From Pseudomonas sp. FP2309 (GTDB lineage: Bacteria; Pseudomonadota; Gammaproteobacteria; Pseudomonadales; Pseudomonadaceae): 64,000 nt of DNA. The notes under the pieces are model-generated. The model ran no database searches, was not told the DNA's origin, and saw only the letters and a program-made list of their open reading frames with translations. Within the stretch, counting starts at the first letter, position 1. Each line of letters opens with the position of its first letter. This document shows positions 1 to 17,636 of the stretch, one piece after another. Both the position numbers and the translations under genes were made by a program. The stretch spans positions 620,001-684,000 of the forward strand of contig NZ_CP117439.1 of the NCBI RefSeq assembly GCF_030687575.1, written 5' to 3'.

Positions 1-263
1 CCCTGGAGCAACGCCCCAACAAGCGTCCGGTGAACTCCGACTTGCGTGAATCCGGAGCGATCGAGCAGGACGCCGACGTCATCATGTTCGTGTACCGCGA
101 CGAGGTGTACCACCCTGAAACGGAACACAAGGGCATTGCCGAAATCATCATCGGCAAGCAGCGGAACGGCCCGATCGGGTTTATCCGGCTGGCGTTCATC
201 GGCAAGTACACGCGCTTCGAGAACCTGGCGCCGGGCAGTTACAACTTTGACGACGACGAATAA
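1..263 (+). CDS. dnaB: Replicative DNA helicase DnaB, C-terminal end (partial)
   Basis: The gene enters from outside the window; the first complete codon is at position 3 and the last 86 residues are visible. DnaB is the hexameric helicase that unwinds DNA at the replication fork. The visible part carries the end of the RecA-like ATPase core: a segment beginning [14 protein letters not shown], then [11 protein letters not shown], then the KQRNGP loop, and an acidic tail ending DDDE. These strings are characteristic of bacterial DnaB. The neighbouring YgiQ gene is downstream on the same strand but about 100 bases away. The call is firm although only the tail is present. Confidence 0.95.
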
Positions 264-359
264 CTCAGCTGCTTAATTCCGACCATTACCGTCGGAATTG
301 GTTAAATTTTGTGCTATATTCCGCGCCCGCGATTTTTCATCTCAACACCGGTCACCGTC

Positions 360-2663
360 ATGCAAACAGCCAAGCCGTTATTTGACTATCCCAAGTACTG
401 GGCCGAATGTTTCGGTCCTGCGCCATTCCTGCCCATGAGCAGGGAGGAGATGGATCAGCTTGGCTGGGATTCGTGCGACATCATCATCGTCACCGGTGAT
501 GCCTACGTTGACCACCCGTCGTTCGGCATGGCGATCATCGGCCGGCTGCTGGAGTCCCAGGGCTTTCGCGTCGGGATCATTGCCCAGCCGAACTGGCAGT
601 CCAAAGACGACTTCATGAAGCTCGGCGAGCCGAACCTGTTCTTCGGCGTCGCGGCCGGCAACATGGACTCGATGATCAACCGCTACACCGCCGACAAGAA
701 AATCCGCTCCGATGACGCCTACACCCCTGGCGGCATGGCCGGCAAACGCCCGGACCGCGCCAGCCTGGTGTACAGCCAGCGGTGCAAGGAAGCCTACAAG
801 AACGTTCCGATCGTGCTCGGCGGCATCGAAGCCTCGCTGCGCCGTATCGCTCACTACGACTACTGGCAGGACCGGGTGCGCAACTCGATCCTGATCGACG
901 CCACAGCCGATATCCTGCTGTACGGCAACGCCGAGCGGGCTATTGTCGAAGTCGCCCAGCGCCTGTCGTGGGGCCACAAAATCGAAGACATCACCGACGT
1001 GCGCGGCACTGCGTTCATTCGTCGTGACACGCCGGCGGGCTGGTACGAAGTGGACTCCACGCGTATTGACCGTCCGGGCAAGATCGACAAGATCATCAAC
1101 CCCTACGTCAACACCCAGGACACCCAGGCCTGCGCCATCGAGCAAGAGAAAGGCCCGGTGGATGATCCGGAAGAAGCCAAGGTCGTGCAGATCCTGGCCA
1201 GCCCGCGCATGACCCGCGACAAGACCGTGATCCGTCTGCCGTCGGTGGAAAAGGTGCGCGGCGACGCGGTGCTGTATGCCCACGCCAACCGCGTGTTGCA
1301 CCTGGAAACCAACCCAGGCAACGCCCGCGCCCTGGTGCAGAAGCACGGTGAAGTGGACGTGTGGTTCAACCCGCCACCCATCCCGATGACCACCGAAGAA
1401 ATGGACTACGTGTTCGGCATGCCCTACGCACGTGTTCCGCACCCGGCGTACGGCAAGGAAAAAATCCCGGCCTACGACATGATCCGCTTCTCGGTGAACA
1501 TCATGCGTGGCTGCTTCGGCGGCTGTACCTTCTGCTCGATCACCGAGCACGAAGGCCGCATCATCCAGAACCGTTCAGAAGAGTCGATCATTCGCGAGAT
1601 CGAAGAGATCCGCGACAAGGTGCCAGGCTTCACCGGCGTGATCTCCGACCTCGGCGGCCCGACCGCGAACATGTACCGCATCGCCTGCAAGAGCCCGGAA
1701 ATCGAATCCGCGTGCCGCAAGCCTTCATGCGTGTTCCCGGGTATCTGCCCGAACCTGAACACCGACCACTCGTCGCTGATCCAGCTGTACCGCAGCGCGC
1801 GTGCATTGCCAGGCGTGAAGAAGATCCTGATCGCTTCCGGCCTGCGCTATGACCTTGCTGTTGAGTCGCCGGAATACGTGAAGGAGCTGGTGACCCACCA
1901 CGTTGGTGGCTACCTCAAGATCGCCCCGGAACACACCGAGGAAGGTCCGCTCAACCAGATGATGAAACCGGGCATCGGCAGCTATGACAAGTTCAAGCGC
2001 ATGTTCGAGAAGTACACCAAGGAAGCGGGCAAAGAGCAGTACCTGATTCCCTACTTCATCGCCGCCCACCCCGGCACCACCGATGAGGACATGATGAACC
2101 TGGCCCTGTGGCTCAAGGGCAACGGTTTCCGTGCCGACCAGGTGCAGGCGTTCTACCCGTCGCCGATGGCCACCGCCACCGCGATGTACCACTCGGGCAA
2201 GAACCCGCTGCGCAAGGTGACCTACAAGAGCGACGCGGTGACCATCGTCAAGAGCGAAGAGCAGCGCCGTCTGCACAAGGCGTTCCTGCGCTACCACGAC
2301 CCGAAAGGCTGGCCGATGCTGCGTGAAGCGTTGACCCGCATGGGCCGCGCGGACCTGATCGGGCCGGGCAAGGACCAGTTGATCCCGCTGCACCAGCCGA
2401 GCACCGACAGCTACCAGAGCGCCCGTCGTAAAAACTCGACGCCGGCCGGCAGCCACAAGGTCGCCAAGGAAACCACTACCAAAATCCTCACCCAGCACAC
2501 CGGTTTGCCGCCCCGTGGCAGCGACGGCAGCAACCCGTGGGACAAGCGCGAACAAGCCAAGGCCGCGGCGCAGGCACGTAACAAACAGGCGGCCAAAGAG
2601 CGCAGTGATGCGGCCAAGGGCAAGGGCGGCAAGCCTGCACGCAAGCCCGTCGTGCCGCGTTGA
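360..2663 (+). CDS. YgiQ family radical SAM protein
   Basis: 767 residues from the ATG at 360; an ORF extending upstream to 309 is less likely because the family begins close to the [14 protein letters not shown] segment. The N-terminal third is the UPF0313/YgiQ domain (for example the [17 protein letters not shown] region). The radical SAM core has the iron-sulfur motif CxxxCxxC at Cys385, Cys389 and Cys392 within [11 protein letters not shown]. The last 80 residues are a basic, low-complexity Lys/Ala-rich tail usual in the family. The substrate of YgiQ proteins is not established; a role in RNA or protein modification is only a guess. The gene stands alone and ends in a clear terminator. 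Confidence 0.93.
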
Positions 2664-2679
2664 TCGCCGCCTGAAATAC

Positions 2680-2710
2680 AAAACGCCAGCCTCGTGCTGG
2701 CGTTTTGCTT
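2680..2710 (+). terminator. Rho-independent terminator after ygiQ
   Basis: Perfect stem AAAACGCCAGC / GCTGGCGTTTT with a five-base loop, followed by GCTTTCT. It lies 17 bases after the ygiQ stop codon. Confidence 0.85.
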
Positions 2711-2784
2711 TCTAGTCGGTGGGTAGCCTGTTTGTTAAGGTGGCGTCAGTTCAGTCATCACCCATTTCAAGGAAGATCACCCCC

Positions 2785-3708
2785 ATGGGCAACCCCCTGG
2801 CCGGCATCGGCATGGACTCCAACCGTTCGCAGTTCATGGCGCGCCAGCGCATCGAGAGCCAGATCAACCTGCCACGCCTGTTTGCGGCGATCGACGCCGA
2901 CCCCAGTATTGTCGGCGCGGGCGTGGTGTACATCGACGCCGATTTCAACGTGGTCACCCTGCGTGAGTTCCAGCCGATCTGCAGCATCGCGCCCAAACGC
3001 ATTATTTTGCGTGAAGCGCAGAAGTACATTGCCCCGGCGCAGTTTGCGCAACAGGTCCAGGACAACCCTCGCGAATCGCGCCTGGTGGGAGAGGCGATCA
3101 ACACATCGCTGTCCTGCGCAGGCGCGATCATCGGTTGGATCGTCGTGCTCAGCGGCACCGTCGCCGTGCCGTTCACGGCGGGCGCCAGCAGCGTGATCAC
3201 GGCCATCGGCTATACCGCGGCCACGGCCAGCACGTTGCAGTGTTTTGCCAGTGGCTATCGCGTCAGCAATGAGATCAGTGACCCGTCCAAAAACGACAAG
3301 CTCGACAGCTCGGAGTGGTATCAGTACACGATGATCGCACTGGATGCGGCGTCGTTGATCGGGGTCGGCGCATCGACGTTGACCACGATAAAGCTGGTGC
3401 GGCTGAACCAGGCCACCACCGGCAAAAGCGTGCGGGACGTATTGCGAGGATTGACCCGGCAAGAGCGCGCCAAGCTCACGAAGGAGCTGCTCAGCATCCA
3501 GGACCCGCGCATGACCGCCAAAATGCTCAAGTTGAAGCAACTGTCCGGCGAGGCGACCAAGCGGTTTACCCCCGCCCAGGTCAAGCATGCAACGGTGACC
3601 CAGATACGGGATGCCCTGGGCGCGGCCATCGGCTTCACCGGCAGTGCAATCTCGGGGAATGTGCGCACGATTGCCGTGGGACTGTATGAGGAAATGAGCA
3701 ATGAATGA
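2785..3708 (+). CDS. Unknown protein with hydrophobic Gly/Ala-rich hairpins; candidate membrane-active toxin
   Basis: 307 residues. The start at ATG 2785 is preferred over an upstream frame opening at 2719 because AAGGAAG sits about 10 bases before it. I do not recognise a named domain. The N-terminal ~110 residues are soluble-looking. Residues ~112-165 form a long Gly/Ala/Val-rich hydrophobic stretch that could be a two-helix hairpin; weaker hydrophobic stretches lie near 190-212 and 277-300, with a basic amphipathic region between them (RGLTRQERAKLTKELL). There is no signal peptide. The stop overlaps the start of the next gene, a four-helix membrane protein. This architecture, no signal peptide with internal hairpins beside a small integral membrane protein, resembles pore-forming effector/immunity pairs, but that is inference. 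I have an impression that homologues are sometimes labelled NAD synthetase; nothing in the sequence supports that. Confidence 0.7.
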   Translation: MGNPLAGIGMDSNRSQFMARQRIESQINLPRLFAAIDADPSIVGAGVVYIDADFNVVTLREFQPICSIAPKRIILREAQKYIAPAQFAQQVQDNPRESRLVGEAINTSLSCAGAIIGWIVVLSGTVAVPFTAGASSVITAIGYTAATASTLQCFASGYRVSNEISDPSKNDKLDSSEWYQYTMIALDAASLIGVGASTLTTIKLVRLNQATTGKSVRDVLRGLTRQERAKLTKELLSIQDPRMTAKMLKLKQLSGEATKRFTPAQVKHATVTQIRDALGAAIGFTGSAISGNVRTIAVGLYEEMSNE

Positions 3709-4150
3709 GCTACCCGGTATTCGCAGTTTTCTGGCGCAGTACTTTCCGGTGTTCATGGGGGCGATTTTCGCGGCGGTGTTCAGCCTGGTGTTTGCGGTGC
3801 CACTGATTTTCGACAGTTATTTCCCGCGCTTGCCGATGGACGACAACCTCAAGTATTCCTTCCTCGGTGGCCTCGCGCTGACGTGGGGCATCGTGCAGTG
3901 CAATTTCATGATCGCGCGCGGGCGGCCGCAATGGGTCTGGCCGCTGGTGACGTTGCTTGCGCTCTGCGTGCTGGGGGTACTGCCCACCATCGCATTTGGT
4001 CCGCATCCGCTTTCCTATGGCTTGAGCCTGCTGTTCCCGCTGTTGGGGTTGCTGCTGCTCAACAGTAAGCGTCACCGCGAAATGCGCCAGAAACTCGTTG
4101 AAGTGAGACGGCTGCGCGAAGCCATCATCGCGACACACAAAGCACGCTAG
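3701..4150 (+). CDS. Small integral membrane protein overlapping the upstream gene; possible immunity protein
   Basis: 149 residues. The ATG at 3701 overlaps the end of the preceding gene by 8 bases, so the two are probably translationally coupled. Four hydrophobic helices are visible: residues ~15-37, ~49-70, ~77-98 and ~103-121. A charged C-terminal helix rich in Arg, Lys and Glu follows (KRHREMRQKLVEVRRLREA), likely cytoplasmic. No family is recognised. Size and topology fit an inner-membrane immunity protein for a membrane-active partner, or simply a subunit of an uncharacterised membrane complex. No other gene is close enough to be in the operon. Confidence 0.7.
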   Translation: MNELPGIRSFLAQYFPVFMGAIFAAVFSLVFAVPLIFDSYFPRLPMDDNLKYSFLGGLALTWGIVQCNFMIARGRPQWVWPLVTLLALCVLGVLPTIAFGPHPLSYGLSLLFPLLGLLLLNSKRHREMRQKLVEVRRLREAIIATHKAR

Positions 4151-4214
4151 GTGGGTAGATTCGCCACCCTGCGCCACAAATATGTGCAGCTCTTGCACCA
4201 GGGTAGGTACATTG

Positions 4215-4229
4215 GCGCCGTTTTGGTGC
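4215..4229. promoter_or_regulatory. NtrC-type binding site upstream of the transglutaminase operon
   Basis: GCGCC-GTTTT-GGTGC matches 9 of 10 conserved positions of the NtrC dyad GCACC-N5-GGTGC. It lies about 45 bases upstream of the -24 element of a sigma-54 promoter. Additional half-sites (TTGCACC near 4194 and TGCACC near 4235) flank it. Confidence 0.6.
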
Positions 4230-4273
4230 TCTACTGCACCGGGTCTGACGATAAAGCGCAATGACCTCCGCTC

Positions 4274-4289
4274 TGGCATAAGTCTTGCG
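4274..4289 (+). promoter_or_regulatory. Sigma-54 (RpoN) promoter of the transglutaminase/ATP-grasp operon
   Basis: TGGCAT-AAGTC-TTGC gives an exact -24 GG and -12 GC with canonical spacing (consensus TGGCAC-N5-TTGC). Transcription would start near 4300, leaving a leader of about 27 bases before the GTG start codon at 4327. Confidence 0.75.
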
Positions 4290-4326
4290 CGCGTTGTGCC
4301 CATGCCCAGGCTAGCAGGAGGCCGCC

Positions 4327-7300
4327 GTGTCGATTCATGTCGCGTTGCACCACGTTACGCATTACCGCTATGACCGCGCTGTCGAACTCGGCCCACAAAT
4401 CGTGCGTTTGCGCCCGGCGGCCCACAGCCGTACGCGGATTTTGTCTTACGCACTCAAGGTGCTGCCCGAGCAGCACTTCATCAATTGGCAGCAGGACCCC
4501 CAGGGCAATTACCTGGCGCGCCTGGTGTTCCCGGAAAAAACCGACGAGTTACGCATCGAAGTCGATCTGGTCGCCGAGATGGCGGTGTTCAATCCGTTCG
4601 ACTTTTTCCTTGAGCCCTACGCTGAAAAAATCCCCTTCAGCTACGCCGCCGATGAGCAGCGCGAGTTGGCGCCGTACCTGGAAACCCTGCCGCTGACGCC
4701 GAAGTTCGCCGCTTACCTGGCCGGCATCGACCGCACGCCGCTGCCCGCCGTGGATTTTCTGGTGGGGCTCAATCAGCGTTTGGCCGCCGACATCGGTTAC
4801 CTGATCCGCATGGAGCCGGGCGTGCAAACCCCGGAGTTCACTCTGGAAAACGCGTCCGGCTCCTGCCGCGACTCGGCCTGGCTGCTGGTGCAATTGCTGC
4901 GCAACCTGGGCCTGGCGGCACGTTTCGTGTCCGGCTACTTGATCCAACTGACGGCCGACGTCAAAGCCCTCGATGGCCCGTCTGGCACCGAAGTGGACTT
5001 CACCGACCTGCACGCCTGGTGCGAAGTGTATTTGCCCGGCGCCGGCTGGATCGGCCTGGACGCCACCTCGGGGTTGTTTGCCGGTGAAGGCCATATTCCG
5101 TTGGCTTGTAGCCCTGATCCTTCGTCTGCCGCGCCGATCAGCGGGCTGGTGGAGCCGTGCGAGTGTGAGTTCACCCACGAGATGTCGGTAGAGCGCATTT
5201 GGGAGGCGCCGCGCGTCACCAAGCCCTACACCGAAGAGCAATGGCTGGCGATCCAGGCCCTGGGCCGGCAGATCGACGCCGACCTGCTCAAGGACGACGT
5301 GCGCCTGACCATGGGCGGCGAACCGACCTTCGTGTCCATCGACGACCCCGACGGCGCCGAATGGAACACCGCCGCGCTCGGCCCGGACAAGCGGCGTTTG
5401 TCGGCCGAGTTGTTTCAGCGCATGCGCAAACACTACGCGCCCCAGGGCCTGGTGCACTTCGGCCAGGGCAAGTGGTACCCCGGCGAGCAACTGCCGCGTT
5501 GGTCCCTCAACTGTTACTGGCGCCGCGACGGCGAGCCGATCTGGCACAACAGCGCGCTGATCGCCGATGAGCAGCAGGACTACGGCGCCGATGGCGTCAT
5601 GGCCGGGCGCTTCCTCGCAGGCGTCGCCGAGCGCCTCAAACTGCCTGCGCGGTTTGTATTCCCGGCGTTCGAAGACAACTTCTACTACCTGTGGCGCGAA
5701 GGCGCGCTGCCGCAAAACGTTACCGCCCAGGACCCGCGTCTGAGCGATGACCTGGAGCGCGAACGCCTGCGTAAAGTGTTCAGCCAGGGCCTTGATAAAG
5801 TCATCGGCCAAGTACTGCCGCTGGCCCGCACCGCGGCCAATGACCGCTGGCAAAGTGGCCGCTGGTACCTGCGCGATAACCATTGCCGGCTGGTGCCGGG
5901 GGATTCGCCGTTGGGCTATCGCCTGCCCTTGGCCTCGCAGCCTTGGGTGACGGCGGCGGAATACCCGTTCGTGCACCCCACTGATCCGAACCAGGATCAG
6001 GCGCCATTGCCGAGCACCGCGCAACTGCACAATCACGCCGAGCCGGCGCCAAGCGAAGAGCGCGTGCCGAAGGTGGATGAGTCCGCCGACTGGCTCACGC
6101 GCACCGCGCTGTGTGCCGAAGCGCGGGAAGGGCGCCTGTACCTGTTCATGCCGCCCCTGGAGCGCGTCGAGGATTACCTGGAGCTGGTCGCCGCAATTGA
6201 GGCCACTGCCGAAGAGCTGCAGTGCCCGGTGCTGCTCGAAGGCTACGAGCCACCCTTCGACATGCGCTTGAGTAACTTCCGGGTCACGCCGGATCCAGGT
6301 GTGATCGAAGTCAACGTGCAGCCGTCCGCAACCTGGGACGAGTTGGTTGAGCGCACCGAATTCCTCTACGAAGAGGCGCGGCAAACCCGCCTGACCACCG
6401 AAAAGTTCATGATCGACGGGCGCCACACCGGCACCGGCGGCGGTAACCACTTTGTGCTCGGCGGCGCCACGCCAAAGGACTCACCGTTCTTGCGTCGTCC
6501 CGATTTGCTGCGCAGTCTGATCAGCTATTGGCATAACCATCCGTCGTTGTCCTACCTGTTCTCCGGCTTGTTTATCGGCCCGACCTCCCAGGCGCCACGG
6601 GTGGATGAAGCGCGTAACGATGCGCTGTATGAGCTGGAAATAGCCTTCGCCCAAATGCCCGCGCCCGGCGAAGAATGCCCGCCATGGCTGGTAGACCGCC
6701 TGCTGCGCAACCTGCTGATCGACGTGACAGGTAACACTCACCGCGCCGAGTTCTGCATCGACAAGCTCTACTCGCCCGACGGCGCCACAGGCCGCCTGGG
6801 CCTGCTCGAACTGCGCGCCTTTGAAATGCCGCCCCACGCGCGCATGAGCCTGACCCAGCAACTGTTGCTGCGGGCGCTGGTCGCGCGCTTCTGGCGTGAA
6901 CCCTACGCACCGCCGAAACTGGCGCGCTGGGGCACTGAGCTGCATGACCGCTTTTTGCTGCCGCATTTTATCGAGCAGGACTTCGCCGACGTAATCGTCG
7001 AACTCAACGCCGCAGGCTACCCGCTGCGTGCCGAATGGTTTGCGGCGCACTTGGCGTTCCGCTTCCCCAAGGTCGGCGACTACACCGTCAGCGGTATCGA
7101 ACTGGAACTGCGCCAAGCCCTGGAGCCCTGGCACGTGCTGGGCGAGGAGGGTGCGGTGGGCGGCACGGTGCGCTATGTGGATTCGTCCCTGGAGCGGCTG
7201 CAAGTCAAACTCAGCGGCCTGCCGCCGCAGCGCTACCTGCTGACCTGCAACGGCATCCCGGTGCCGCTGCAACCGACCGGCCGCGTGGGCGAGTTCGTTG

Positions 7301-7617
7301 CCGGTGTGCGCTACCGCGCCTGGCAGCCCGCCAACTGCCTGCAACCGACCATCGCGGTGCACGCACCGTTGGTGTTCGATCTGCTCGATACCTGGATGCA
7401 ACGTTCTCTGGGCGGCTGTCAGTATCACGTGGCGCATCCGGGCGGGCGTAACTACGACAGCTTGCCGGTGAACGCCAACGAAGCCGAGAGCCGGCGCATG
7501 GCACGGTTCTTCCGGTTGGGGCATACGCCTGGAAAATTACCTGTGCCAGCCCTTGAGATTAACGACGAGCTGCCGATGACTCTGGATCTGCGACGTTTCC
7601 CCAATAAAAAAGACTGA
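4327..7617 (+). CDS. Large transglutaminase-like protein with C-terminal DUF2126
   Basis: 1096 residues from GTG 4327, preceded by AGGAGG at 4316-4321. Domain order: bacterial transglutaminase N-terminal beta domain (1-90), papain-like transglutaminase core (about 140-260), then a long DUF2126 region (about 290-1090). The catalytic triad is complete: Cys180 in ASGSCRDSAW, His229 in DLHAWCEV and Asp245 in GLDATSG. In this superfamily the core acts as a peptidase or amide-exchange enzyme; DUF2126 has no known activity. It is the first gene of a three-gene operon with a circularly permuted ATP-grasp/alpha-E fusion and a second transglutaminase. Such sets have been proposed to build and trim peptides or modify proteins; the product is unknown. 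The sigma-54/NtrC signals upstream point to expression under nitrogen limitation. Confidence 0.88.
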   Translation: MSIHVALHHVTHYRYDRAVELGPQIVRLRPAAHSRTRILSYALKVLPEQHFINWQQDPQGNYLARLVFPEKTDELRIEVDLVAEMAVFNPFDFFLEPYAEKIPFSYAADEQRELAPYLETLPLTPKFAAYLAGIDRTPLPAVDFLVGLNQRLAADIGYLIRMEPGVQTPEFTLENASGSCRDSAWLLVQLLRNLGLAARFVSGYLIQLTADVKALDGPSGTEVDFTDLHAWCEVYLPGAGWIGLDATSGLFAGEGHIPLACSPDPSSAAPISGLVEPCECEFTHEMSVERIWEAPRVTKPYTEEQWLAIQALGRQIDADLLKDDVRLTMGGEPTFVSIDDPDGAEWNTAALGPDKRRLSAELFQRMRKHYAPQGLVHFGQGKWYPGEQLPRWSLNCYWRRDGEPIWHNSALIADEQQDYGADGVMAGRFLAGVAERLKLPARFVFPAFEDNFYYLWREGALPQNVTAQDPRLSDDLERERLRKVFSQGLDKVIGQVLPLARTAANDRWQSGRWYLRDNHCRLVPGDSPLGYRLPLASQPWVTAAEYPFVHPTDPNQDQAPLPSTAQLHNHAEPAPSEERVPKVDESADWLTRTALCAEAREGRLYLFMPPLERVEDYLELVAAIEATAEELQCPVLLEGYEPPFDMRLSNFRVTPDPGVIEVNVQPSATWDELVERTEFLYEEARQTRLTTEKFMIDGRHTGTGGGNHFVLGGATPKDSPFLRRPDLLRSLISYWHNHPSLSYLFSGLFIGPTSQAPRVDEARNDALYELEIAFAQMPAPGEECPPWLVDRLLRNLLIDVTGNTHRAEFCIDKLYSPDGATGRLGLLELRAFEMPPHARMSLTQQLLLRALVARFWREPYAPPKLARWGTELHDRFLLPHFIEQDFADVIVELNAAGYPLRAEWFAAHLAFRFPKVGDYTVSGIELELRQALEPWHVLGEEGAVGGTVRYVDSSLERLQVKLSGLPPQRYLLTCNGIPVPLQPTGRVGEFVAGVRYRAWQPANCLQPTIAVHAPLVFDLLDTWMQRSLGGCQYHVAHPGGRNYDSLPVNANEAESRRMARFFRLGHTPGKLPVPALEINDELPMTLDLRRFPNKKD

Positions 7618-7630
7618 ACGCCATCTCACT

Positions 7631-7707
7631 GTGGCCTCAGGCCTTTGTAGTGAGCGAGCTTGCCTCGCGCGGGGCCGGCCCGCTCACCACAAAAGCCTGG
7701 AGGCCAC
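7631..7707. repeat. Palindromic REP-like element inside the transglutaminase operon
   Basis: Long imperfect inverted repeat: the left arm starts GTGGCCTCAGGC and continues GTAGTGAGCG, the right arm contains CGCTCACCAC and ends AGGCCAC. The core is the GTGAGCG...CGCTCAC family that recurs at 29956 and 43108. It fills most of the 148-base gap between the first and second genes and may act as a processing or attenuation hairpin. Confidence 0.75.
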
Positions 7708-7765
7708 GGGGATTTGCAGTGTTTGTTGAGTTAATCTGAGCCCCCTTTGCCCTGCCGAGCGTTCC

Positions 7766-10252
7766 ATGTCCGACTTGCTCGACCGTTACCCGCTGACCGC
7801 GGGCACCTATCACGAACTGCTGGATGACGGCGGCGCGGTGCGTGCCCATTGGCGGCGCTTGCTCGATCACCTGCAACGCAGTACCCCCGCGCAACTGGCC
7901 CAGCGCCAGGCGCTGCTGATGCGGCAGATCCAGGAAAACGGTGTGACCTACAACGTCTACGCCGACCCCAAGGGCGCCGACCGCCCGTGGGAGCTGGATT
8001 TGTTGCCCCATGTGCTGGCGGCTGATGAATGGCAGCACTTGTCGGCCGGTATCGCCCAGCGTGCGCGCCTGCTCAATGCCGTGCTCGCCGACCTCTACGG
8101 CCCACAACGCCTGATCAAAGAAGGCTTGCTGCCGGCGGAGCTGGTGTTCGGGCATAACAATTTCCTGTGGCCGTGCCAGGGCATACAGCCACCGGATGGG
8201 GCGTTTTTGCACCTGTACGCCGTGGACCTGGCGCGCACCCCGGACGGTCGTTGGTGGGTGACGGCTGACCGTACCCAGGCCCCGTCGGGCGCCGGTTATG
8301 CCTTGGAAAACCGCACCATCGTGTCCCGTGCCTTTCCGGATTTGTACCGCGACCTGCAAGTGCAGCACCTCACCGGCTTCTTCCGCACACTCCAGGAAAC
8401 CCTGGCCCGCCAGGCGCCGCACGATAACCAGCCGCCGCTGATCGTGCTGCTCACCCCCGGCCGTTTCAACGAAAGCTATTTCGAACACCTCTACCTCGCG
8501 CGCCAGCTCGGTTACCCGTTGGTGGAAGGCGGCGACCTGACCGTGCGCGACAGCACCGTGTTCCTCAAAACCCTCAGCGGCCTGCGTCGGGTGCACGCGA
8601 TCATGCGGCGCCTGGACGACGACTTCTGCGACCCGTTGGAGCTGCGCACCGACTCGGCCCTCGGCGTGCCCGGCCTGCTGGATGCCGTGCGCCAAGGCAA
8701 TGTGCTGGTGGCCAACGCCTTGGGCAGCGGCGTGCTCGAATCCCCCGGTCTGCTGGGGTTCCTGCCGAAGATCAATGAGTTTTTATTTGGCGAAGCACTG
8801 ATCCTGCCGTCCATCGCCACCTGGTGGTGCGGTGAAGCGCCGGTACTGGCCGAAGCCTTGGAGAAGCTGCCGGAGTTGTTGATCAAACCGGCATTCCCCT
8901 CGCAAAGCTTCGCTCCGGTATTCGGGCGCGACCTCGACGATGAGCAGCGCCAGGCCCTGGCCGAACGCATGCGGGCGCGGCCTTACGCGTATGTCGCCCA
9001 GGAGCTGGCGCAATTGTCCCAGGCGCCGGTCTGGCACACCGTGGATGACCACTTGCAGCACCGTGCCATTGGCATGCGCGTGTACGCCGTGGCCAGCGCC
9101 GACGGCTACCGAGTGTTACCGGGGGGCCTGACCCGTGTGGCGGCCGAGGCCGACGCCGAAGTGGTGTCGATGCAGCGCGGTGGCGCGAGCAAGGACACCT
9201 GGGTGCTCGGCGAGCGTGCGCCGGGTGGTGAGCAGTGGCGCGCCCAGCGCACGATCGGCGCCCACGACCTGGTGCGCCGCGATCCCTATCTGCCGTCGCG
9301 GGTGGTGGAAAATCTGTTCTGGTTCGGCCGCTATTGCGAGCGCTGCGATGACAGCGCGCGCTGGTTGCGCATTGTGCTGGCGCGGTATGTCGACGGGGAT
9401 GACCCGTTGGCGTTGCAGGCGGCGGTGGAGTTGGGTGAGAACCTGCGCCTGTTGCCGGAAGAGGGTGAGCTGCCCGAGCGCCTGCTCGCTGCGTTGCTCG
9501 GTGATGACTGGCCGCAAAGCCTGCGCGCCAACCTGCAACGCTTGCAGTGGGCCGCCTCCCAGGTGCGCGGCAAACTGTCCCGTGAGAACTGGCAGGCCCT
9601 GGTTGAGTTGCAGCGAGAAGCCCTGGAGCTGGAAAGCGAAGCCCCGGACTTTGGCGAGTTGCTCGACTTTTTAAACCGCCTGGTGATGTCGTTGGCGGCG
9701 TTGTCCGGGTTTGCCCTGGATGACATGACCCGCGACGAAGGCTGGCGCTTTTTGATGATGGGCCGGCGCATCGAGCGCCTGCAGTTTCTCAGCAGCAGCC
9801 TGGCCGCGTTCCTGCGCGGCGTGGCCGTGTTCGATCAGGCCGGGCTGGAGTGGTTGCTGGAACTGGGCAACAGCAGCATCACCTACCGCTCACGCTACCT
9901 GGCGGTGCCACAGTTGATCCCGGTGCTCGACCTGTTGCTGCTTGACGAGCAGAACCCCCATGCGGTGCTGTTCCAGCTCAAGCTGGTCAATCGCACCCTG
10001 CGTCGTCTCAATGATGATTTTGGCGTACCCCGTGAGACCGGCCTGGCGCCGTTGGTGGAGCGCCTGGCGCGCTTCGACCTGGGCTGCCTGGAGAACGCGC
10101 TGTTTGGCGAGGTCAGCGTACACGCCGCCTTGGATGGCCTGGCCGACCTGCTGCAAGCGGTCGCCGATGAAAGCGGGCAAGTGTCGGATCGCCTGGCGCT
10201 GCGCCATTTTGCCCATGTGGATGATGTCAGCCAGCAAACGGTGTCGTTGTGA
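7766..10252 (+). CDS. Circularly permuted ATP-grasp / alpha-E fusion protein
   Basis: 828 residues from the ATG at 7766. The N-terminal ~480 residues are the circularly permuted type 2 ATP-grasp region (DUF404/DUF407), with hallmark strings such as RPWELDLLPHVL, GHNNFLWPCQG and LLTPGRFNESYFEH. From about residue 515 (DPYLPSRVVENLFWFGRYCERCD) to the end is an alpha-E helical domain (DUF403). In many bacteria the two are separate genes, so this is a fusion. ATP-grasp enzymes activate carboxylates as acyl phosphates to form amide bonds, and this subgroup is predicted to ligate amino acids or peptides; the substrate is unknown. The stop overlaps the next ATG by one base (TGATG), coupling it to the small transglutaminase. 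Confidence 0.88.
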   Translation: MSDLLDRYPLTAGTYHELLDDGGAVRAHWRRLLDHLQRSTPAQLAQRQALLMRQIQENGVTYNVYADPKGADRPWELDLLPHVLAADEWQHLSAGIAQRARLLNAVLADLYGPQRLIKEGLLPAELVFGHNNFLWPCQGIQPPDGAFLHLYAVDLARTPDGRWWVTADRTQAPSGAGYALENRTIVSRAFPDLYRDLQVQHLTGFFRTLQETLARQAPHDNQPPLIVLLTPGRFNESYFEHLYLARQLGYPLVEGGDLTVRDSTVFLKTLSGLRRVHAIMRRLDDDFCDPLELRTDSALGVPGLLDAVRQGNVLVANALGSGVLESPGLLGFLPKINEFLFGEALILPSIATWWCGEAPVLAEALEKLPELLIKPAFPSQSFAPVFGRDLDDEQRQALAERMRARPYAYVAQELAQLSQAPVWHTVDDHLQHRAIGMRVYAVASADGYRVLPGGLTRVAAEADAEVVSMQRGGASKDTWVLGERAPGGEQWRAQRTIGAHDLVRRDPYLPSRVVENLFWFGRYCERCDDSARWLRIVLARYVDGDDPLALQAAVELGENLRLLPEEGELPERLLAALLGDDWPQSLRANLQRLQWAASQVRGKLSRENWQALVELQREALELESEAPDFGELLDFLNRLVMSLAALSGFALDDMTRDEGWRFLMMGRRIERLQFLSSSLAAFLRGVAVFDQAGLEWLLELGNSSITYRSRYLAVPQLIPVLDLLLLDEQNPHAVLFQLKLVNRTLRRLNDDFGVPRETGLAPLVERLARFDLGCLENALFGEVSVHAALDGLADLLQAVADESGQVSDRLALRHFAHVDDVSQQTVSL

Positions 10253-11142
10253 TGAGTGCGCGCTACCAGATTTTTCACGATACCCATTACCACTACGACA
10301 GTCCGGTGTCCCTGGCCCAGCAATTGGCGCACTTGTGGCCGCGCCCTTGCGCCTGGCAGCGTTGCAGCGCTCAGCAGCTGGATATCAGCCCGCTGCCGTC
10401 GTCGCGCCGGGATGAACTGGATGTGTTCGGCAACCCGATCACGCGGTTGGCGTTCGAGCGGCCCCATGATGAATTGCTGGTCAATGCCGCGCTGACCGTA
10501 GAAGTGCTGGCGCGGCCGGTGCTGGACTTTCAGCAGTCGCCGCCTTGGGACCAGACCCGGGACAGCCTGACCTACAGCAGCCAGCCGCTGTCACCCGAGG
10601 CGATCGAAGCCTGCCGCTATCGCTTCGAATCGCCCTACGTGCACCTGAAGAAAACCTTCGTCGAGTTCTCCGAAAGCTGCTTTCCGCCCGGCGAGCCTTT
10701 GCTGGTGGGCGTGCAGGCATTGATGCAAAAGATCTTCAGCGAATTCACCTTCGACGCCGAGGCCACTCAGGTCGCCACGCCGTTGGTGGAAGTGCTGGAG
10801 CGCCGACGTGGCGTGTGCCAGGACTTCGCCCACCTGATGCTCGCCTGCCTGCGCTCACGGGGCCTGGCGGCGCGTTATATCAGCGGTTATCTGCTCACCC
10901 AGCCACCGCCCGGCCAGCCACGGCTGATCGGCGCCGACGCATCCCATGCATGGGTTTCGGTGTTTTGCCCAATGGCGGGCTGGGTGGATTTTGACCCGAC
11001 GAACAACGTGCAGCCGGCACTGGAACACATCACCCTGGCCTGGGGCCGGGATTTTTCCGATGTGTCGCCGTTGCGCGGGGTGATTCTGGGGGGCGGCAGC
11101 CATGACCCGGAAGTGCGGGTGACGGTGATGCCACTGGAGTGA
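10252..11142 (+). CDS. Small transglutaminase-like (papain-fold) protein
   Basis: 296 residues from ATG 10252, which shares one base with the preceding TGA; an in-frame GTG one codon earlier is also possible. An N-terminal bacterial transglutaminase beta domain (1-90) is followed by the core with a full triad: Cys189 in RRGVCQDFAH, His232 in DASHAWVSV and Asp248 in DFDPTN. This subfamily typically accompanies alpha-E and circularly permuted ATP-grasp proteins and is annotated as a putative cysteine protease. It closes the operon, so two distinct transglutaminase folds bracket one ligase. No signal peptide is seen, so it probably works in the cytoplasm. Confidence 0.88.
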   Translation: MSARYQIFHDTHYHYDSPVSLAQQLAHLWPRPCAWQRCSAQQLDISPLPSSRRDELDVFGNPITRLAFERPHDELLVNAALTVEVLARPVLDFQQSPPWDQTRDSLTYSSQPLSPEAIEACRYRFESPYVHLKKTFVEFSESCFPPGEPLLVGVQALMQKIFSEFTFDAEATQVATPLVEVLERRRGVCQDFAHLMLACLRSRGLAARYISGYLLTQPPPGQPRLIGADASHAWVSVFCPMAGWVDFDPTNNVQPALEHITLAWGRDFSDVSPLRGVILGGGSHDPEVRVTVMPLE

Positions 11143-11177
11143 CCCACGCGGCGCAGCCGTTTCTGTGGAGGTTTTTA

Positions 11178-11219
11178 TAGCGAGCGGGCGGCGCGACGAT
11201 TCGACAACCCGCTCACCAT
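11178..11219. repeat. Degenerate REP-like inverted repeat
   Basis: GCGAGCGGGC and CCCGCTCACC face each other across about 20 bases, a degraded copy of the GTGAGCGGGC family. It lies between convergent genes and could terminate both. Confidence 0.45.
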
Positions 11220-11226
11220 CAAGAAA

Positions 11227-11409
11227 TTATTCAGCCGGATCTTTTGGTGTTTCTGTCTCGTCGCTCGTTTCTTCAGCATCGACGTCTGCGTTCAGTGCGC
11301 CGGCTTCTTCATCAGCAGCGGCTTTCTTGCGTTGCAGCTTTTCCTCTTTCTTCTGTTCCTTGGCCAAGTCTCTCTGACGTTTGGCGAAGGAGTAATTAGG
11401 TTTGGCCAT
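11227..11409 (-). CDS. Small highly charged conserved-type protein
   Basis: 60 residues. The N-terminal half is basic and helical (KRQRDLAKEQKKEEKLQRKK), the C-terminal half is acidic (DVDAEETSDETETPKD). No domain or signal is recognised; such proteins are often nucleic-acid or ribosome associated, but that is a guess. A GGATCGCCC stretch precedes the start, giving a modest ribosome binding site. It is transcribed away from azurin, in the same place where other pseudomonads carry a small hypothetical gene. Confidence 0.7.
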   Translation of the reverse strand: MAKPNYSFAKRQRDLAKEQKKEEKLQRKKAAADEEAGALNADVDAEETSDETETPKDPAE

Positions 11410-11496
11410 GGGCGATCCTCTAGGGTCGAAGGTGAGGGTGGCGGCGCGCAGCTGCCTTGGGTCGCTATGGTAGCAGCTTAGCAGCGCGCTTGGCCT

Positions 11497-11553
11497 TCAC
11501 TTACCGCAGGCATATGCGGCCAGCAGGCCGTTGAAGAATTGATTGAAGTGCAT
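11497..11553 (-). CDS. Possible 18-residue small ORF upstream of the charged protein
   Basis: The frame encodes MHFNQFFNGLLAAYACGK and is preceded by GGAG with a long spacing. It could be a leader peptide or a tiny membrane peptide on the same transcript as the 60-residue protein. Only the ORF and a weak ribosome binding site support it. Confidence 0.3.
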   Translation of the reverse strand: MHFNQFFNGLLAAYACGK

Positions 11554-11658
11554 GGCTCAGGCTCCGGTGGGTGATGGGCCGATCATAGGCGGGTCCTGCG
11601 ACTTTGGCTGGTAGATTGTGTTGATAAGTCTGATAGCCTAAAGTTGTATACAATCTGT

Positions 11659-11672
11659 TGATTCAGATCATA
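11659..11672. promoter_or_regulatory. ANR/FNR-type box upstream of azurin
   Basis: TTGAT-TCAG-ATCAT matches the ANR/FNR consensus TTGAT-N4-ATCAA at 9 of 10 positions, about 70 bases before the azurin start. A perfect TTGTATACAA palindrome sits at 11645-11654. Azurin control by ANR is known in P. aeruginosa. Confidence 0.6.
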
Positions 11673-11740
11673 AGAATTCAAGCCTGCTTGAGGCACCCTA
11701 CCGCAATCCGCGTTTTTTAAACCCTGCCTTGGAGATTCAC

Positions 11741-12187
11741 ATGTTTGCCAAACTCGTTGCTGTTTCCCTGCTGACTCTGGCGAGCGGCCAGTTGCTTGCT
11801 GCAGAGTGCAAAGTGACTGTCGACTCCACTGACCAAATGTCTTTCAACACCAAAGAAATCACGATCGACAAAAGCTGCAAGACGTTCACCGTGAACCTGG
11901 AACACTCCGGCAGCTTGCCGAAGAACGTCATGGGCCATAACTGGGTGCTGACCAGCGCTGCCGACATGCAGCCGGTGGCCACTGACGGCATGGCTGCCGG
12001 TATCGACAAGAACTACCTGAAAGAAGGTGACACCCGCATCATCGCCCATACCAAGATCATCGGTGCCGGCGAAAAAGACTCGGTGACCTTCGATGTGTCG
12101 AAGCTGGCTGCCGGTACCGATTACATGTTCTTCTGCTCGTTCCCAGGCCACATCTCGATGATGAAAGGCACTGTGGTCATCAAGTAA
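11741..12187 (+). CDS. azu: Azurin precursor (blue copper protein)
   Basis: 148 residues: a 20-residue Sec signal peptide cut after GQLLA, then a mature protein of 128 residues beginning AECKVTV, the standard azurin length. Azurin is a periplasmic one-electron carrier of the cupredoxin fold. The type 1 copper ligands are visible: the His of MGHNW, and Cys, His and Met in the motif [10 protein letters not shown] near the C-terminus. The disulfide Cys pair is the third mature residue and the Cys of DKSCK. The ATG at 11741 is chosen because the upstream TTG frame adds residues before a normal signal peptide; GGAG precedes it. An ANR-like box lies upstream, consistent with low-oxygen or redox control. 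Confidence 0.97.
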
Positions 12188-12204
12188 CACCGCGTTATGG
12201 TGTG

Positions 12205-12238
12205 TCGCGAGCAAGCCGACGCTTCGACTTGCTCGCGA
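12205..12238 (+). terminator. Hairpin between azu and nadE, probable terminator
   Basis: Perfect 11-base stem TCGCGAGCAAG / CTTGCTCGCGA with a 12-base loop, 17 bases after the azurin stop. There is no U tract, so it may instead be a REP-type hairpin stabilising convergent transcripts. Confidence 0.55.
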
Positions 12239-12277
12239 ATGCTATCTGACAATCAACACAGAACGATCTGGCTCACC

Positions 12278-13105
12278 TCACGGCGCAAACGGCATCACCC
12301 GCTTGTGTTCGGTCTTGCGGTACGTCTCGCAGATGATCCGGAACGCTTCTTCCCGTACTGGCTCACCGTGCAGGAACGCATCGATCTCGGCGTAGGTCAC
12401 GCCATGTGACGCTTCGTCCGGCTTGCCCGGTGACAGATCTTCCAGGTCGGCCGTCGGCACCTTCTCCACCAGCGATTCCGGCGCACCAAAGTGACGCGCA
12501 ATCGCGCGCACCTGGTTTTTCACCAGCCCGCTCAACGGTGCCAGGTCGCAGGCGCCATCACCGAACTTGGTGAAAAAGCCCATCACCGCTTCCGCAGCAT
12601 GATCAGTACCAATCACCAGCCCACCGGCCGCGCCGGCGATGGTGTACTGCGCCACCATGCGCATGCGTGCCTTGGTGTTGCCCAGCACGAAGTCCCGCGA
12701 CACCGCGGCCTTGCCTTCAAACGCCGCCACTTCATTGGCCAGGGCTTTCACCGCCGGGCCGATGTTTACGGTATGGCGCTCGTCCGGATCGATAAAGTCC
12801 ACCGAGGCCTGGGCGTCGATTTCGTCGAACTGGGTTTCGTAGGGCAGGCGCACGGCAATGAATGTATACGCCTGGTCACCGGTGCTGGCGCGCAGTTCCT
12901 GCATGGCACGCTGGGCCAACAGGCCGGCGGTAAGGGAGTCGACACCGCCGCTGATGCCCAGCACCAACGTCTTGAGGCCGGAGTTGCGCAGGCAGTCCTG
13001 GATAAAGGCCACGCGCCGGGCCACCTCGGCCTCAAGGGCGGCCTGGTCTTTGAACGGTGCTTGCACCTTGAGCTGCTGCGCAATCTCGCGCTGTACGGCT
13101 TGCAT
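12278..13105 (-). CDS. nadE: NH3-dependent NAD+ synthetase
   Basis: 275 residues, the normal size for ammonia-dependent NadE, with no nitrilase (glutaminase) domain. It converts nicotinate adenine dinucleotide, ATP and ammonia to NAD+. The ATP pyrophosphatase P-loop SGGVDS is near residue 54 ([15 protein letters not shown]). Other family segments are [19 protein letters not shown] and the C-terminal KTEHKR. It starts three bases after the end of pncB, so the two form a nicotinate salvage operon. Confidence 0.95.
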
Positions 13106-13108
13106 GAT

Positions 13109-14323
13109 TCACTCCTTGCTGGCGATGGCAGGTACTTTGAAAACGTGACGCAAATAGGCGACAAAATTCGGATCGCTGCAGTGGGTCTTGCCCGCTTCAT
13201 CGGAGATTTTCGCGACGGGCTGACCATTGCAGGCGGTCATTTTAAGCACGATGCTCATCGGTTCCACCCCTGGAATGTCACAGGTCAGGTTGGTGCCGAT
13301 GCCAAAACTTACATTAATGCGACCACGCAACGCGCGGAAAATCTCCAGGGCCTTGGGCAGCGACAGGCTGTCGGAGAACACCAGGGTCTTGCTCATCGGC
13401 TCGATCCCGAGCTTGTGATAGTGGGCGATGGCTTTTTCGGCCCACTGCACCGGGTCACCGGAGTCGTGACGCAGGCCGTCGAACAGCTTGGCGAAGTACA
13501 AATCGAAGTCGCCCAGGAACGCGTCGGTGGTGATGCAATCGGTCAGGGCGATGCCCAGCAGGCCACGGTACTCGCGGACCCAGCAGTCGAGGGCGGCGAT
13601 CTGGCTGTCGATCAGGCGCGGGCCGAGTTGCTGGTGGGCCATGATCCATTCGTGGGCCATGGTGCCCAGGGGTTTCATGTCCAGCTCGCGGGCCAGGTGC
13701 ACGTTGCTGGTGCCGACGAAGCGACCGGGGAAGTCGTGCTTGAGCACATTCACCACTTCTTCCTGCACCCGGTACGAGAAACGCCGGCGGGTGCCGAAGT
13801 CAGCGACTTGCAGCTCCGACAGTTCATCGCTGCCGGCATTGGCCGTCAGCCAGTCGAACTTGCGGTACAGCTGCTCGCGCGCCTGTTCGAGGATTACGGT
13901 CTGATAGCGGTAGCGGTTACGCACTTCGCTGACGATGGCCAGCATCGGCACTTCGAACAGGATCACATGCAGCCACGGCCCGCGCAGGCGGATGAACAAC
14001 TCGCCGTTCTCGATACCGGTCTGCACGTAGCGCAGGTTGAAGCGGAACAGCCCCAGAAAGCGCAAAAAGTCCGGCTTCATAAAGCTGATGCGTTCCAGGA
14101 AGCCCAACTGATCCGGGCTCAGGCTCAGCTCGGCGAGGCGCTCGATCTGGTAGCGGATCTCCGCCAGGTACGGGCGCAGGTCTTCGCTGTTGCGGCAACG
14201 AAACTCCCATTCAACTTCCACGTTGGGATAGTTGTGCAGCACCGCCTGCATCATGGTCAGCTTGTAGAAGTCGGTGTCGAGCAGGTTCTGCACGATGCGA
14301 TCGGCAAACACACTCTCGCTCAT
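13109..14323 (-). CDS. pncB: Nicotinate phosphoribosyltransferase
   Basis: 404 residues from the ATG at 14323, which has GGAGATTCCCGTT in front; an in-frame ATG at 14371 is less likely because the family starts near [12 protein letters not shown]. PncB makes nicotinate mononucleotide from nicotinate and PRPP with ATP hydrolysis. Characteristic strings are [33 protein letters not shown] and the phosphate-binding [12 protein letters not shown]. Length is normal. It is the promoter-proximal gene of a two-gene operon with nadE. Confidence 0.95.
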
Positions 14324-14629
14324 AACGGGAATCTCCAGACGGGTCGGCGCTGGGCGCCAGCCTTTACGCACGATTAGGGAAGGGGGCTAGTGGCGCATAG
14401 ACCTGTGGGGTTTTGCCAGTGATTTTTTGCATGGCTGCCTGCGCCGCAGTTGGGCATGCCGAGTTTTGCGGTAGTTTCTTTCTGATATGGGCTATTCCCT
14501 CAGCAAGATAAACGCGTCAAACATTAAGAATCGAGACGCGTCCCGCTGGGAAAGGCGAACCGTCTGACATTCGTCACGGATAACCTCTCTTTACTCTCTG
14601 GGCTTTCACTAAGTCCAGGGAACAGAGCA
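14324..14629. other. Intergenic region between pncB and the effector island, with first copy of the island repeat
   Basis: Divergent promoters for pncB and the phospholipase gene must lie here, but I see no clear -35/-10 pair. Bases 14411-14487 (GTGATTTTTTGCATGG ... TGCCGAGTTTTGCGG ... TTTCTTTCTG) recur, slightly diverged, at 17577-17646, with a shorter piece at 18975-19000. These direct repeats bracket the duplicated effector cassette. Confidence 0.7.
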
Positions 14630-16225
14630 ATGAATGGACCCGACATCGTTAGCCCCGTCGCGCTGCGACATACCCAGCAAGTGACCTGCGCCCCGCGCTG
14701 GTACGTGCAGAACACTGAATACCCGCCCGCGATAGCCACCTATCAACCTCTGATCAATGGCGAAGAAACCTTCAAGGCCGTGCATTCAGCGATCGCCCAG
14801 GCCACCAAAACGGTCGACATCATCTGCTGGGGCTTCCAACCGTCGATGTACTTTGTCCGCAATGGCATTGCCCCTAGCATCGGTGAACTGCTCAAAAACA
14901 AGGCTCGTGAAGGGGTCAAGGTTCGCGTATTGGTGTGGGAAATGCCGCTCAACTCTGCCGGCTTCGCGGGCGAGGCGAACCTGCCCGGTAAAAGTACAAG
15001 GATGCGTCATGCGCTGAGGTGGACGGCCAGCCATCACCAAAAGAGCGTGCTGGTCGATTACGAACTGCCGGATCGAGCTGTTGGCTTTGTCATGGGCCAC
15101 AACATGCTCGATGCATATTGGGACACGGACAAACACTCGGCTTTGAACCGCTCAGAGGGCAGCAAACCCGCACCCAATCGCGGCCCGCGAGGTGCCACCC
15201 CGCGCCAGGATATTTCCAGCCAGGTCAGTGGGCCGATTCTGGAACACCTGCACCATAACTTCGCCAGCGCCTGGCTTAAGGAGACCGGCGAGGATCTGCT
15301 TGATCTTCGCCAAGCCAAGCAAATCGGGCCGCAACTGCAATGCAGCCCCGGCGTCACTCGCCAAATGGCCCAAGTGCTGCGCACTCAGGCGCAAGCGGGC
15401 AAGCGCGATATCGAGCAGGTTTATCTGAACGCAGTGAACAACGCGACCCAATTTATCTACATCGAGAACCAGTACTTTCGCTGGCCGCCGTTGGCCGAGG
15501 CTATCAAGAAGGCGGCGTCGGATCAGACCGGCGGGGGGCGCGATCCGGGTGTGCATGGCGCTTTGCACCTGTTCGTGATCACCAATGCGACCGATGACGG
15601 CATCGGGGCGGGCACGGTGAATACCCAGCGCATGCTTGAAAGCCTGGGGCGCGCCGACACGATTGCGAACGTAACCAAACTACGGCGTCTCGAACAGGTA
15701 AAAGGCGCCGCACCGCCCAGGCCGACACCTGATCCGCGCGATCACGTCGGGCAGAGGGAGTTGGCCAAGTGGCAGGCCGAACTGGATCAGAAAATCAAGG
15801 AAATTGAGGACAGCACGATTATTGCGCAGGAGGTACCGGGCTTGAAGGTTCACATCTGCTCACTGGTGGCACCTGATTCGCCGGCCGGCAAGCCGTGGGT
15901 GCCGGTGTACATCCATTCCAAGCTGATGATCGTCGACGACGTATTTACCACCTTGGGCTCGGCGAATATCAACACTCGTAGCATGCAGGTCGATAGCGAG
16001 CTGAATATTGCCCATGAGTGGATGAGTGTGACGCAGGCGTTGAGGCGGCGGTTGTGGGATCTGCATACGGATGGGAGGGGGGCGCAGGATGATCCAAAGG
16101 ATGCGTTTGAGGCTTGGACAGACATCATTACCGAAAACAAAAAACGCCAATCAAAAAAAATAACTCCAAGCGTTCCGCTCATCGAATTTTATTACGGTAA
16201 CGCCACCCTGAAGGACCTCGACTAA
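14630..16225 (+). CDS. Phospholipase D family antibacterial effector, Tle5-like
   Basis: 531 residues with two HxKx4D catalytic motifs of the phospholipase D superfamily: His136/Lys138/Asp143 in HHQKSVLVD and His429/Lys431/Asp436 in HSKLMIVDD. Each is followed by the expected segment (GHNMLDAYW; LGSANINTRSM). Such enzymes hydrolyse phosphatidylethanolamine and related lipids. There is no signal peptide, consistent with delivery by a type VI secretion system as for PldA/PldB (Tle5) of P. aeruginosa. The stop overlaps the start of a lipoprotein with Sel1-like features (TAATG), the arrangement seen for PldB and its Sel1-repeat immunity proteins. No vgrG, hcp or PAAR gene is in the window. The 3' end is noticeably AT-richer than its neighbours, suggesting acquired DNA. 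ATG 14630 is supported by the family-like N-terminus; the ribosome binding site is not strong. Confidence 0.85.
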   Translation: MNGPDIVSPVALRHTQQVTCAPRWYVQNTEYPPAIATYQPLINGEETFKAVHSAIAQATKTVDIICWGFQPSMYFVRNGIAPSIGELLKNKAREGVKVRVLVWEMPLNSAGFAGEANLPGKSTRMRHALRWTASHHQKSVLVDYELPDRAVGFVMGHNMLDAYWDTDKHSALNRSEGSKPAPNRGPRGATPRQDISSQVSGPILEHLHHNFASAWLKETGEDLLDLRQAKQIGPQLQCSPGVTRQMAQVLRTQAQAGKRDIEQVYLNAVNNATQFIYIENQYFRWPPLAEAIKKAASDQTGGGRDPGVHGALHLFVITNATDDGIGAGTVNTQRMLESLGRADTIANVTKLRRLEQVKGAAPPRPTPDPRDHVGQRELAKWQAELDQKIKEIEDSTIIAQEVPGLKVHICSLVAPDSPAGKPWVPVYIHSKLMIVDDVFTTLGSANINTRSMQVDSELNIAHEWMSVTQALRRRLWDLHTDGRGAQDDPKDAFEAWTDIITENKKRQSKKITPSVPLIEFYYGNATLKDLD

Positions 16226-17514: not shown

Positions 17515-17636
17515 AGGGCTACGCCCCTACATTCTTGCTGAGCGCGGCAATAGCAGGCTGCGCCAGCTTTGCGGGGGGGCCAGTAATTTTTGCAGGACTG
17601 TCTGCGCCGCGGTCGGGCATGCCGAGTTTGCGGTAG
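17511..17636 (+). pseudogene. Truncated third-gene lipoprotein remnant (41 residues)
   Basis: An ATG at 17511 overlaps the immunity stop (ATGA). The 41-residue frame begins MKGYAPTFLLSAAIAGCASF, a lipoprotein signal with lipobox IAGC, then runs into the island repeat and stops. This looks like the 5' end of a third cassette gene whose body was lost. The same sequence without its start reappears at 18933-18970 after the second immunity copy. Confidence 0.55.

Follow-up and report, generated by a model that had tools for sequence, protein, structure and literature searches.

The operons most similar to the locus described here are those of the Anbu type, for which a function in peptide synthesis or tagging was reportedly predicted by Iyer et al. 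2009. They comprise genes of a circularly permuted (CP) ATP-grasp protein, an alpha-E protein, a transglutaminase, and Anbu, are regarded as a predicted peptide-synthesis/tagging system (PMC5666114, PMC6376114), and have been reported to be induced by nitrogen limitation; the stand-alone ATP-grasp of the Anbu operon of Y. bercovieri frees phosphate from ATP (PMC6376114). In B. cenocepacia, a cluster encoding DUF404/407, DUF403, a transglutaminase, and a large transglutaminase protein (I35_5080-83, BCAM1233-1236) is listed among the targets shared by NtrC and sigma-54, with ntrC mutant values of -8.2, -9.4, -9.4, and -6.0 for I35_5080 to I35_5083 (PMC5491218). The families of this cluster match those of a three-gene operon in the window studied by us, i.e., the whole stretch of 64,000 nucleotides (positions 620,001 to 684,000) of the Pseudomonas sp. 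FP2309 genome, a single contig of 5.66 megabases (Mb). The large B. cenocepacia protein presumably carries DUF2126, as suggested by its description and by the layout of the Burkholderia locus L155. The ATP-grasp and alpha-E genes of B. cenocepacia adjoin the large gene, whereas in FP2309 the corresponding genes are at 4.20 Mb and the large gene is at 0.62 Mb.

The window operon shares protein families with the Anbu-type system, including alpha-E accompanied by ATP-grasp and transglutaminase, but it has DUF2126, is without Anbu, and encodes an ATP-grasp that is fused to alpha-E and devoid of the ATP/Mg motifs. Results of our alignments indicate that this fusion has lost the ATP-grasp motifs. 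It probably acts together with an intact ATP-grasp encoded elsewhere; an operon of the Anbu-type families in the same genome is its likely working partner. The features of the locus, with coordinates in the window, are as follows:

4172..4188, + strand: distal, weaker NtrC-like dyad, 8 of 12 consensus positions (consensus scoring)
4214..4230, + strand: proximal NtrC-like dyad GGCGCC-N5-GGTGCT, 9 of 12 consensus positions (consensus scoring)
4274..4289, + strand: sigma-54 promoter TGGCATAAGTCTTGCG, conserved in 30 of 30 Pseudomonas loci
4327..7617, + strand: gene 1, transglutaminase and DUF2126 protein of 1096 amino acids (aa), GTG start (open reading frame (ORF) list, Pfam)
4732..5064, + strand: Transglut_core domain of gene 1, triad C180/H229/D245 (Pfam, alignment)
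5152..7593, + strand: DUF2126 domain of gene 1, predicted to be an ATP-dependent amide ligase of glutamine-synthetase fold
7650..7687, no strand assigned: REP-like palindrome between genes 1 and 2 (pattern count)
7766..10252, + strand: gene 2, predicted pseudo-ATP-grasp and alpha-E fusion, 828 aa (Pfam, alignments)
8258..8290, + strand: degenerate Mg-ligand motif of the fusion, VTADRTQAPSG, aligned with VLEDNLRTPSG of the stand-alone paralogues of this genome
8885..8926, + strand: degenerate glycine-rich loop of the fusion, KPAFPSQSFAPVFG, where the paralogues read KETQGSGGYGMLVG
9290..10210, + strand: Alpha-E domain of the fusion, ER motifs kept (Pfam, 35 fusions compared)
10252..11142, + strand: gene 3, second transglutaminase, 296 aa, triad C189/H232/D248 (Pfam, alignment)

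The domains assigned by Pfam (Bact_transglu_N, Transglut_core, and DUF2126 in gene 1; CP_ATPgrasp_2 and Alpha-E in gene 2; Bact_transglu_N and Transglut_core in gene 3) agree with the three ORFs described in an initial annotation of this DNA, which had also correctly placed both intact catalytic triads. The residue numbers of gene 3 refer to the ATG at 10252; the alternative GTG start at 10249 would give 297 aa. Genes 1 and 2 are separated by 148 base pairs that include the palindrome, genes 2 and 3 overlap by TGATG, and the three genes are presumably transcribed together.

The degeneration of the fusion was followed in a comparison of 37 fusions with 22 stand-alone ATP-grasps, to which 69 and 27 sequences from named contigs were then added; without one locus that had been counted twice, the final sets comprised 105 distinct fusions and 48 distinct stand-alone proteins, Verrucomicrobia among them. 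The window fusion, aligned with the two stand-alone FP2309 paralogues, has A167 and R169 in the positions of the Glu and Asn of the motif, which are presumed, from the biochemistry of glutathionylspermidine synthetase, to be Mg ligands, and it has no GGYG. Among the fusions, one has the Glu, another has GG, and none has the Asn or GGYG, while all 48 stand-alone proteins have the Glu, the Asn, and GG, and 47 of them GGYG, with one unread letter in the remaining one. In a midpoint-rooted tree, the stand-alone ATP-grasps form one clade with support of 1.0. The solved structure 3n6x, a stand-alone CP ATP-grasp described as a putative glutathionylspermidine synthase, aligned over the whole ATP-grasp region (E 6.3e-91); it keeps EDN and SGGYG, both of which the fusion is without. 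It was also the sole structure matched with a good E-value by the stand-alone ATP-grasp profile, and since this profile did not match structures of glutathionylspermidine synthetase, the Mg-ligand assignment stays a presumed one. In the alpha-E part, E525, R526, E670, and R671 are invariant or conserved in at least 90% of 35 fusions.

Stand-alone proteins of this family are encoded at two unlinked sites of the FP2309 genome. One of them, at 4.20 Mb, is an operon of intact ATP-grasp, alpha-E, and transglutaminase, with TGGCACGGGCCTTGCG and GCACCAGGAGGGTGC upstream. The other, at 2.87 Mb (L005), is an ATP-grasp/alpha-E pair with no adjoining transglutaminase; a sigma-54-like match lies at -193 of this pair, and an NtrC-like dyad at -306. 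The transglutaminase of the stand-alone operon has Ser in the column of the catalytic Cys in three of nine aligned rows, among them that of L182 from 1585 (Achromobacter; it reads GGSRDQ) and that of L174; L155 of this set is poorly aligned.

The distribution of the genes is consistent with a functional tie between the fusion operon and intact ATP-grasps. A search of 149 Pseudomonas genomes found DUF2126 in 108, with the matches in G043 and G087 being fragmented. Among 299 Pseudomonadota genomes, DUF2126 is present in 84 and CP_ATPgrasp_2 in 161, and a comparison of the two genome lists by hand placed the CP ATP-grasp family in all 84 genomes with DUF2126 versus 77 of the 215 others (Fisher p 4e-29, uncorrected for shared descent). 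At least two CP_ATPgrasp_2 matches occur in 79 of these 84 genomes, the exceptions being G411, G184, G197, G211, and G244. A fusion was found in 51 of 59 Pseudomonas, all 51 of which also have a stand-alone ATP-grasp; four have the stand-alone protein only and four neither. In four Pseudomonas genomes without DUF2126 (L205-L208), the fusion and the second transglutaminase adjoin, and a stand-alone ATP-grasp is present in each. Gene order was examined in two sets, of 40 and of 80 (named) DUF2126 loci, with one locus in common (L050 = L189). The fusion and the second transglutaminase accompany DUF2126 in 36 of the 40 loci and the fusion in 69 of the 80; a stand-alone ATP-grasp is encoded in the same stretch in 20 loci of the former set and in 27 of the latter. 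The fusion was not detected at L048, L053, L056, and L081 of the 40 loci and at 11 of the 80, several of which end early. At L081 (L081:8109-11136), a divergent DUF2126 spread over two ORFs was observed.

Both operons of FP2309 are preceded by similar promoter elements. Our scoring, for which consensus sequences served as sigma-54 and NtrC tables, recovered both promoter elements pointed out by the initial annotation, the sigma-54 site and an NtrC-like dyad, GCGCCgttttGGTGC (4215-4229). Their conservation was followed in 30 loci, those of FP2309 and of the 29 others that scored best among the 108 DUF2126-bearing Pseudomonas genomes; because the 30 loci of each operon were chosen as best-scoring, they are close relatives. 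The sigma-54 site of the window operon lies at -53/-54 in all 30 loci (29 identical, one with a single base change), and its conservation is beyond chance, the mean identity of its 16 columns being 99.8% vs. 51.2% for the 154 other columns. A dyad with at least 8 of 12 consensus positions was found between -109 and -114 in 24 loci and at -122 in two further ones, and one at -150 to -156 in 25; at one locus (L034), neither NtrC-like dyad was found. Taken alone, the proximal dyad of FP2309 is weak: it matches 9 of 12 positions, with a shuffle p of 0.40. A sigma-70 scan gave one site vs. 1.4 expected. Operons of the 4.20 Mb type have a sigma-54 site between -49 and -52 and a dyad with 9-11 of 12 positions at -117 to -120 in 30 of 30 best-scoring Pseudomonas loci. 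These patterns support the assignment of a predicted sigma-54/NtrC-type promoter to the window operon. In P. putida KT2440, the related stand-alone operon PP_2686-2688 is upregulated 11- to 15-fold under nitrogen limitation (PMC7801951).

The DUF2126 domain, described in Pfam as 'Putative amidoligase enzyme' (a name absent from the initial annotation), has a model that matched the glutamine-synthetase fold in all of the 50 structure matches listed, at 6-16% identity. Gamma-glutamyl-methylamide synthetase (GmaS) and 1-naphthylamine synthetase are among them, GmaS with the highest identity in the matches listed (15-16%). The domain differs from glutamine synthetase and gamma-glutamyl-amine synthetases in this low identity, in its size of about 800 residues, and in its fusion to a transglutaminase. 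Eleven residues (E332, E387, E661, N663, H708, R806, E808, D812, E828, R830, and E833) are invariant in 120 aligned rows, 118 of them distinct; their correspondence to glutamine synthetase residues rests on one weak, motif-level hhalign match to the glutamine synthetase profile (E 0.0017, probability 15%). A sequence search of solved structures with DUF2126 matched no ligase, the GCS2 profile matched DUF2126 with E 0.18, and the glutamine synthetase profile matched the ATP-grasp alignment with E 0.13. The triad of gene 1 is conserved in the same 120 rows (Cys in 119, with one gap; His and Asp in 120), and that of the second transglutaminase in 96 rows, 94 of them distinct (Cys and His in 96, Asp in 95). 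An amide-forming activity of the system, as proposed in the initial annotation, appears plausible, the likelier ligases being DUF2126 and the ATP-grasp of the unlinked intact operon rather than the fusion.

Anbu-like genes occur in or near DUF2126 clusters in 6 of the 40 loci (L042, L048, L056, L077, L079, L080) and in 2 of the 80 (L140, L151); of three such genes compared with Pfam, one scored above the proteasome cut-off, one barely reached it, and one was unmatched. No Anbu peptidase gene is present between 4327 and the azurin gene of the window. A divergent Anbu-like query, run without a positive control, found nothing in the FP2309 genome, the sole PF00227 match of which reads as HslV. 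The other neighbour clusters checked at the 40 loci, from each of which one to three members were put to Pfam, were histidine kinases (8 loci), GGDEF proteins (4), and aldehyde dehydrogenases, tricarboxylate-transport receptors, and zinc metallopeptidases (3 each); one cluster of 4 had no Pfam match, and two (c0, c5) are antisense artefacts. The zinc metallopeptidases were observed as Peptidase_Mx with a zinc ribbon, putative zinc-binding metallopeptidase, at L060:3892-5010 (the member tested), L063:6682-7818, and L076:13419-14612.

We propose, with about even confidence for and against, that the window operon and the unlinked 4.20 Mb operon act as a single ligase system induced by nitrogen starvation. 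DUF2126 and the intact ATP-grasp would each use ATP to activate a carboxylate, which would then be linked to an amine, and the product may be an (iso)peptide or a peptide tag. The fusion would not use ATP and would pair with the intact ATP-grasp/alpha-E as a scaffold, substrate receptor, or regulator. The transglutaminases may cleave or transfer the bond formed, and thus its making and breaking could be balanced, with an Anbu peptidase added in some lineages. A storage peptide, one of the products envisaged by the initial annotation, would be a poor fit with induction by starvation. A more far-reaching and tentative version of this proposal, which we regard as rather unlikely, is a cycle of protein or peptide tagging that belongs to neither the Pup nor the ubiquitin kind, in which a ligase of glutamine-synthetase fold and its own transglutaminase de-ligase would write and erase an amide mark under nitrogen starvation, while the pseudo-ATP-grasp/alpha-E would hold and regulate the unlinked intact ATP-grasp.

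Several observations weigh against the proposed two-operon system. In one of the four DUF2126-less genomes (G007), the stand-alone ATP-grasp is in two pieces. Outside Pseudomonas, the best site was sigma-54-like (shuffle p <=0.05) in only 20 of 55 named DUF2126 loci, mostly of Burkholderiales and some of Verrucomicrobia, with some of the sites within a called ORF, and such a site was present 5' of the DUF2126 gene in 8 of the set of 40 loci. One fusion (L076) retains the Glu and another (L062) GG; K374 is still found in 64 of the 105 fusions, and K476 in 67. The Mg-ligand assignment itself relies on the alignment together with glutathionylspermidine-synthetase biochemistry. The Anbu of Y. bercovieri is reported to have shown no specific interaction with its operon partners (PMC6376114). 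PP_2686-2688 are also upregulated (14.2-, 16.0-, and 19.6-fold) in the rpoN mutant of P. putida under nitrogen limitation, and the proteasome-like gene PP_2685 is flat in the wild type (1.12) (PMC7801951); these data speak against strict sigma-54 dependence in that study. The nitrogen control put forward by the initial annotation is thus backed by the type of promoter and by the B. cenocepacia data, but not by the behaviour of the P. putida operon in the rpoN mutant.

The initial annotation saw the peptide ligase in the fusion itself. Its score of 522 bits for CP_ATPgrasp_2, far above the Pfam cut-off of 32, and the retention of D154, R157, P173, S174, G175, R183, D289, and N317 in most or all fusions would be in keeping with such a role, but the Glu/Asn pair and the glycine loop are missing across the fusions, so the want of ATP-binding residues that the annotation had named as evidence against its proposal was found on the residue side; we consider this role very unlikely and have set it aside. 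The replaced site is still constrained, because 96 of the 105 fusions have R169 and 95 have Q171 in place of the lost residues. This conserved change of E-x-N-x-R to [S/G/A]-D-R-T-Q could mean that the old active site has acquired a new function, catalytic or ligand-binding, that needs no ATP; a conserved site of this kind could equally be an interface, and we hold a new function to be distinctly improbable.

Other explanations concern the fate of the product. DUF2126 could act like gamma-glutamyl-amine synthetases and attach an acid such as glutamate to an amine or peptide destined for breakdown, with the transglutaminases hydrolysing the conjugates to free nitrogen, i.e., scavenging without any tag. 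The NtrC/sigma-54-type control of both operons and of the matching B. cenocepacia cluster would suit such a catabolic route, as would the similarity of the DUF2126 model to the two synthetases named above and the correlation of Bact_transglu_N and DUF403/404/407 with urea-metabolism domains in marine metagenomes (PMC3597751). However, transport or oxidation genes are not steady neighbours among the clusters checked at the 40 loci, the linkage of Anbu and ATP-grasp points to peptides, and small identity differences between fold matches are not discriminating; we judge scavenging of this kind to be possible, though unlikely. The transglutaminases might instead be the working enzymes of envelope or protein cross-linking, the ligases merely supplying the donor. 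The second transglutaminase does resemble 6g49, a solved structure of a protein-glutamine gamma-glutamyltransferase (E 1.2e-8), but envelope genes are not among the recurrent neighbour clusters checked, and we give this explanation very little credence.

The operon of the window is preceded by a YgiQ gene, an Ssp4-family gene, and a 149-aa ORF, and is followed by genes of azurin and NAD synthase. The Ssp4-family gene (2719-3708, + strand) is named in NCBIfam as a type VI secretion system effector (E 1.1e-117). The ORF that overlaps it (3701-4150, + strand) has long hydrophobic stretches and no match in a Pfam search; it could be the immunity partner of the effector. REP-like palindromes with similar arms are present at 7650-7687, 29959-29996, and 43109-43146, their arms giving six matches to one 19-base pattern in the window vs. 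0.13 expected. An Rfam scan of positions 1-20000 gave nothing at the gathering score. The Caulobacter transglutaminase homologue HvyA, whose promoter carries an NtrC peak, was set apart by its description as a member of the BTLCP family from a capsule locus. Nothing specific on the genes discussed here appears in the excerpted parts of papers on the P. aeruginosa rlo operon (PMC12239564), a vesicle screen (PMC12096838), and CDC123 (PMC4431377).

Earlier publications cover the gene families, the general prediction of peptide synthesis or tagging, and nitrogen control for a matching cluster. The literature searched, the coverage of which did not extend to Iyer et al. 2009, did not show the family-wide decay of the fused ATP-grasp or a tie between the fusion and an unlinked stand-alone partner with the same type of promoter. 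In line with the initial annotation, no described product was found there for DUF2126, a family common enough to occur in most of the Pseudomonas and in over a quarter of the Pseudomonadota genomes searched. If the fusion is a pseudo-enzyme, ligase assays on the fusion alone would fail for a simple reason, and the relevant ligase candidates would be DUF2126 and the unlinked intact ATP-grasp operon. The long-open role of Anbu/alpha-E/transglutaminase systems would then become directly testable in common laboratory strains of Pseudomonas.

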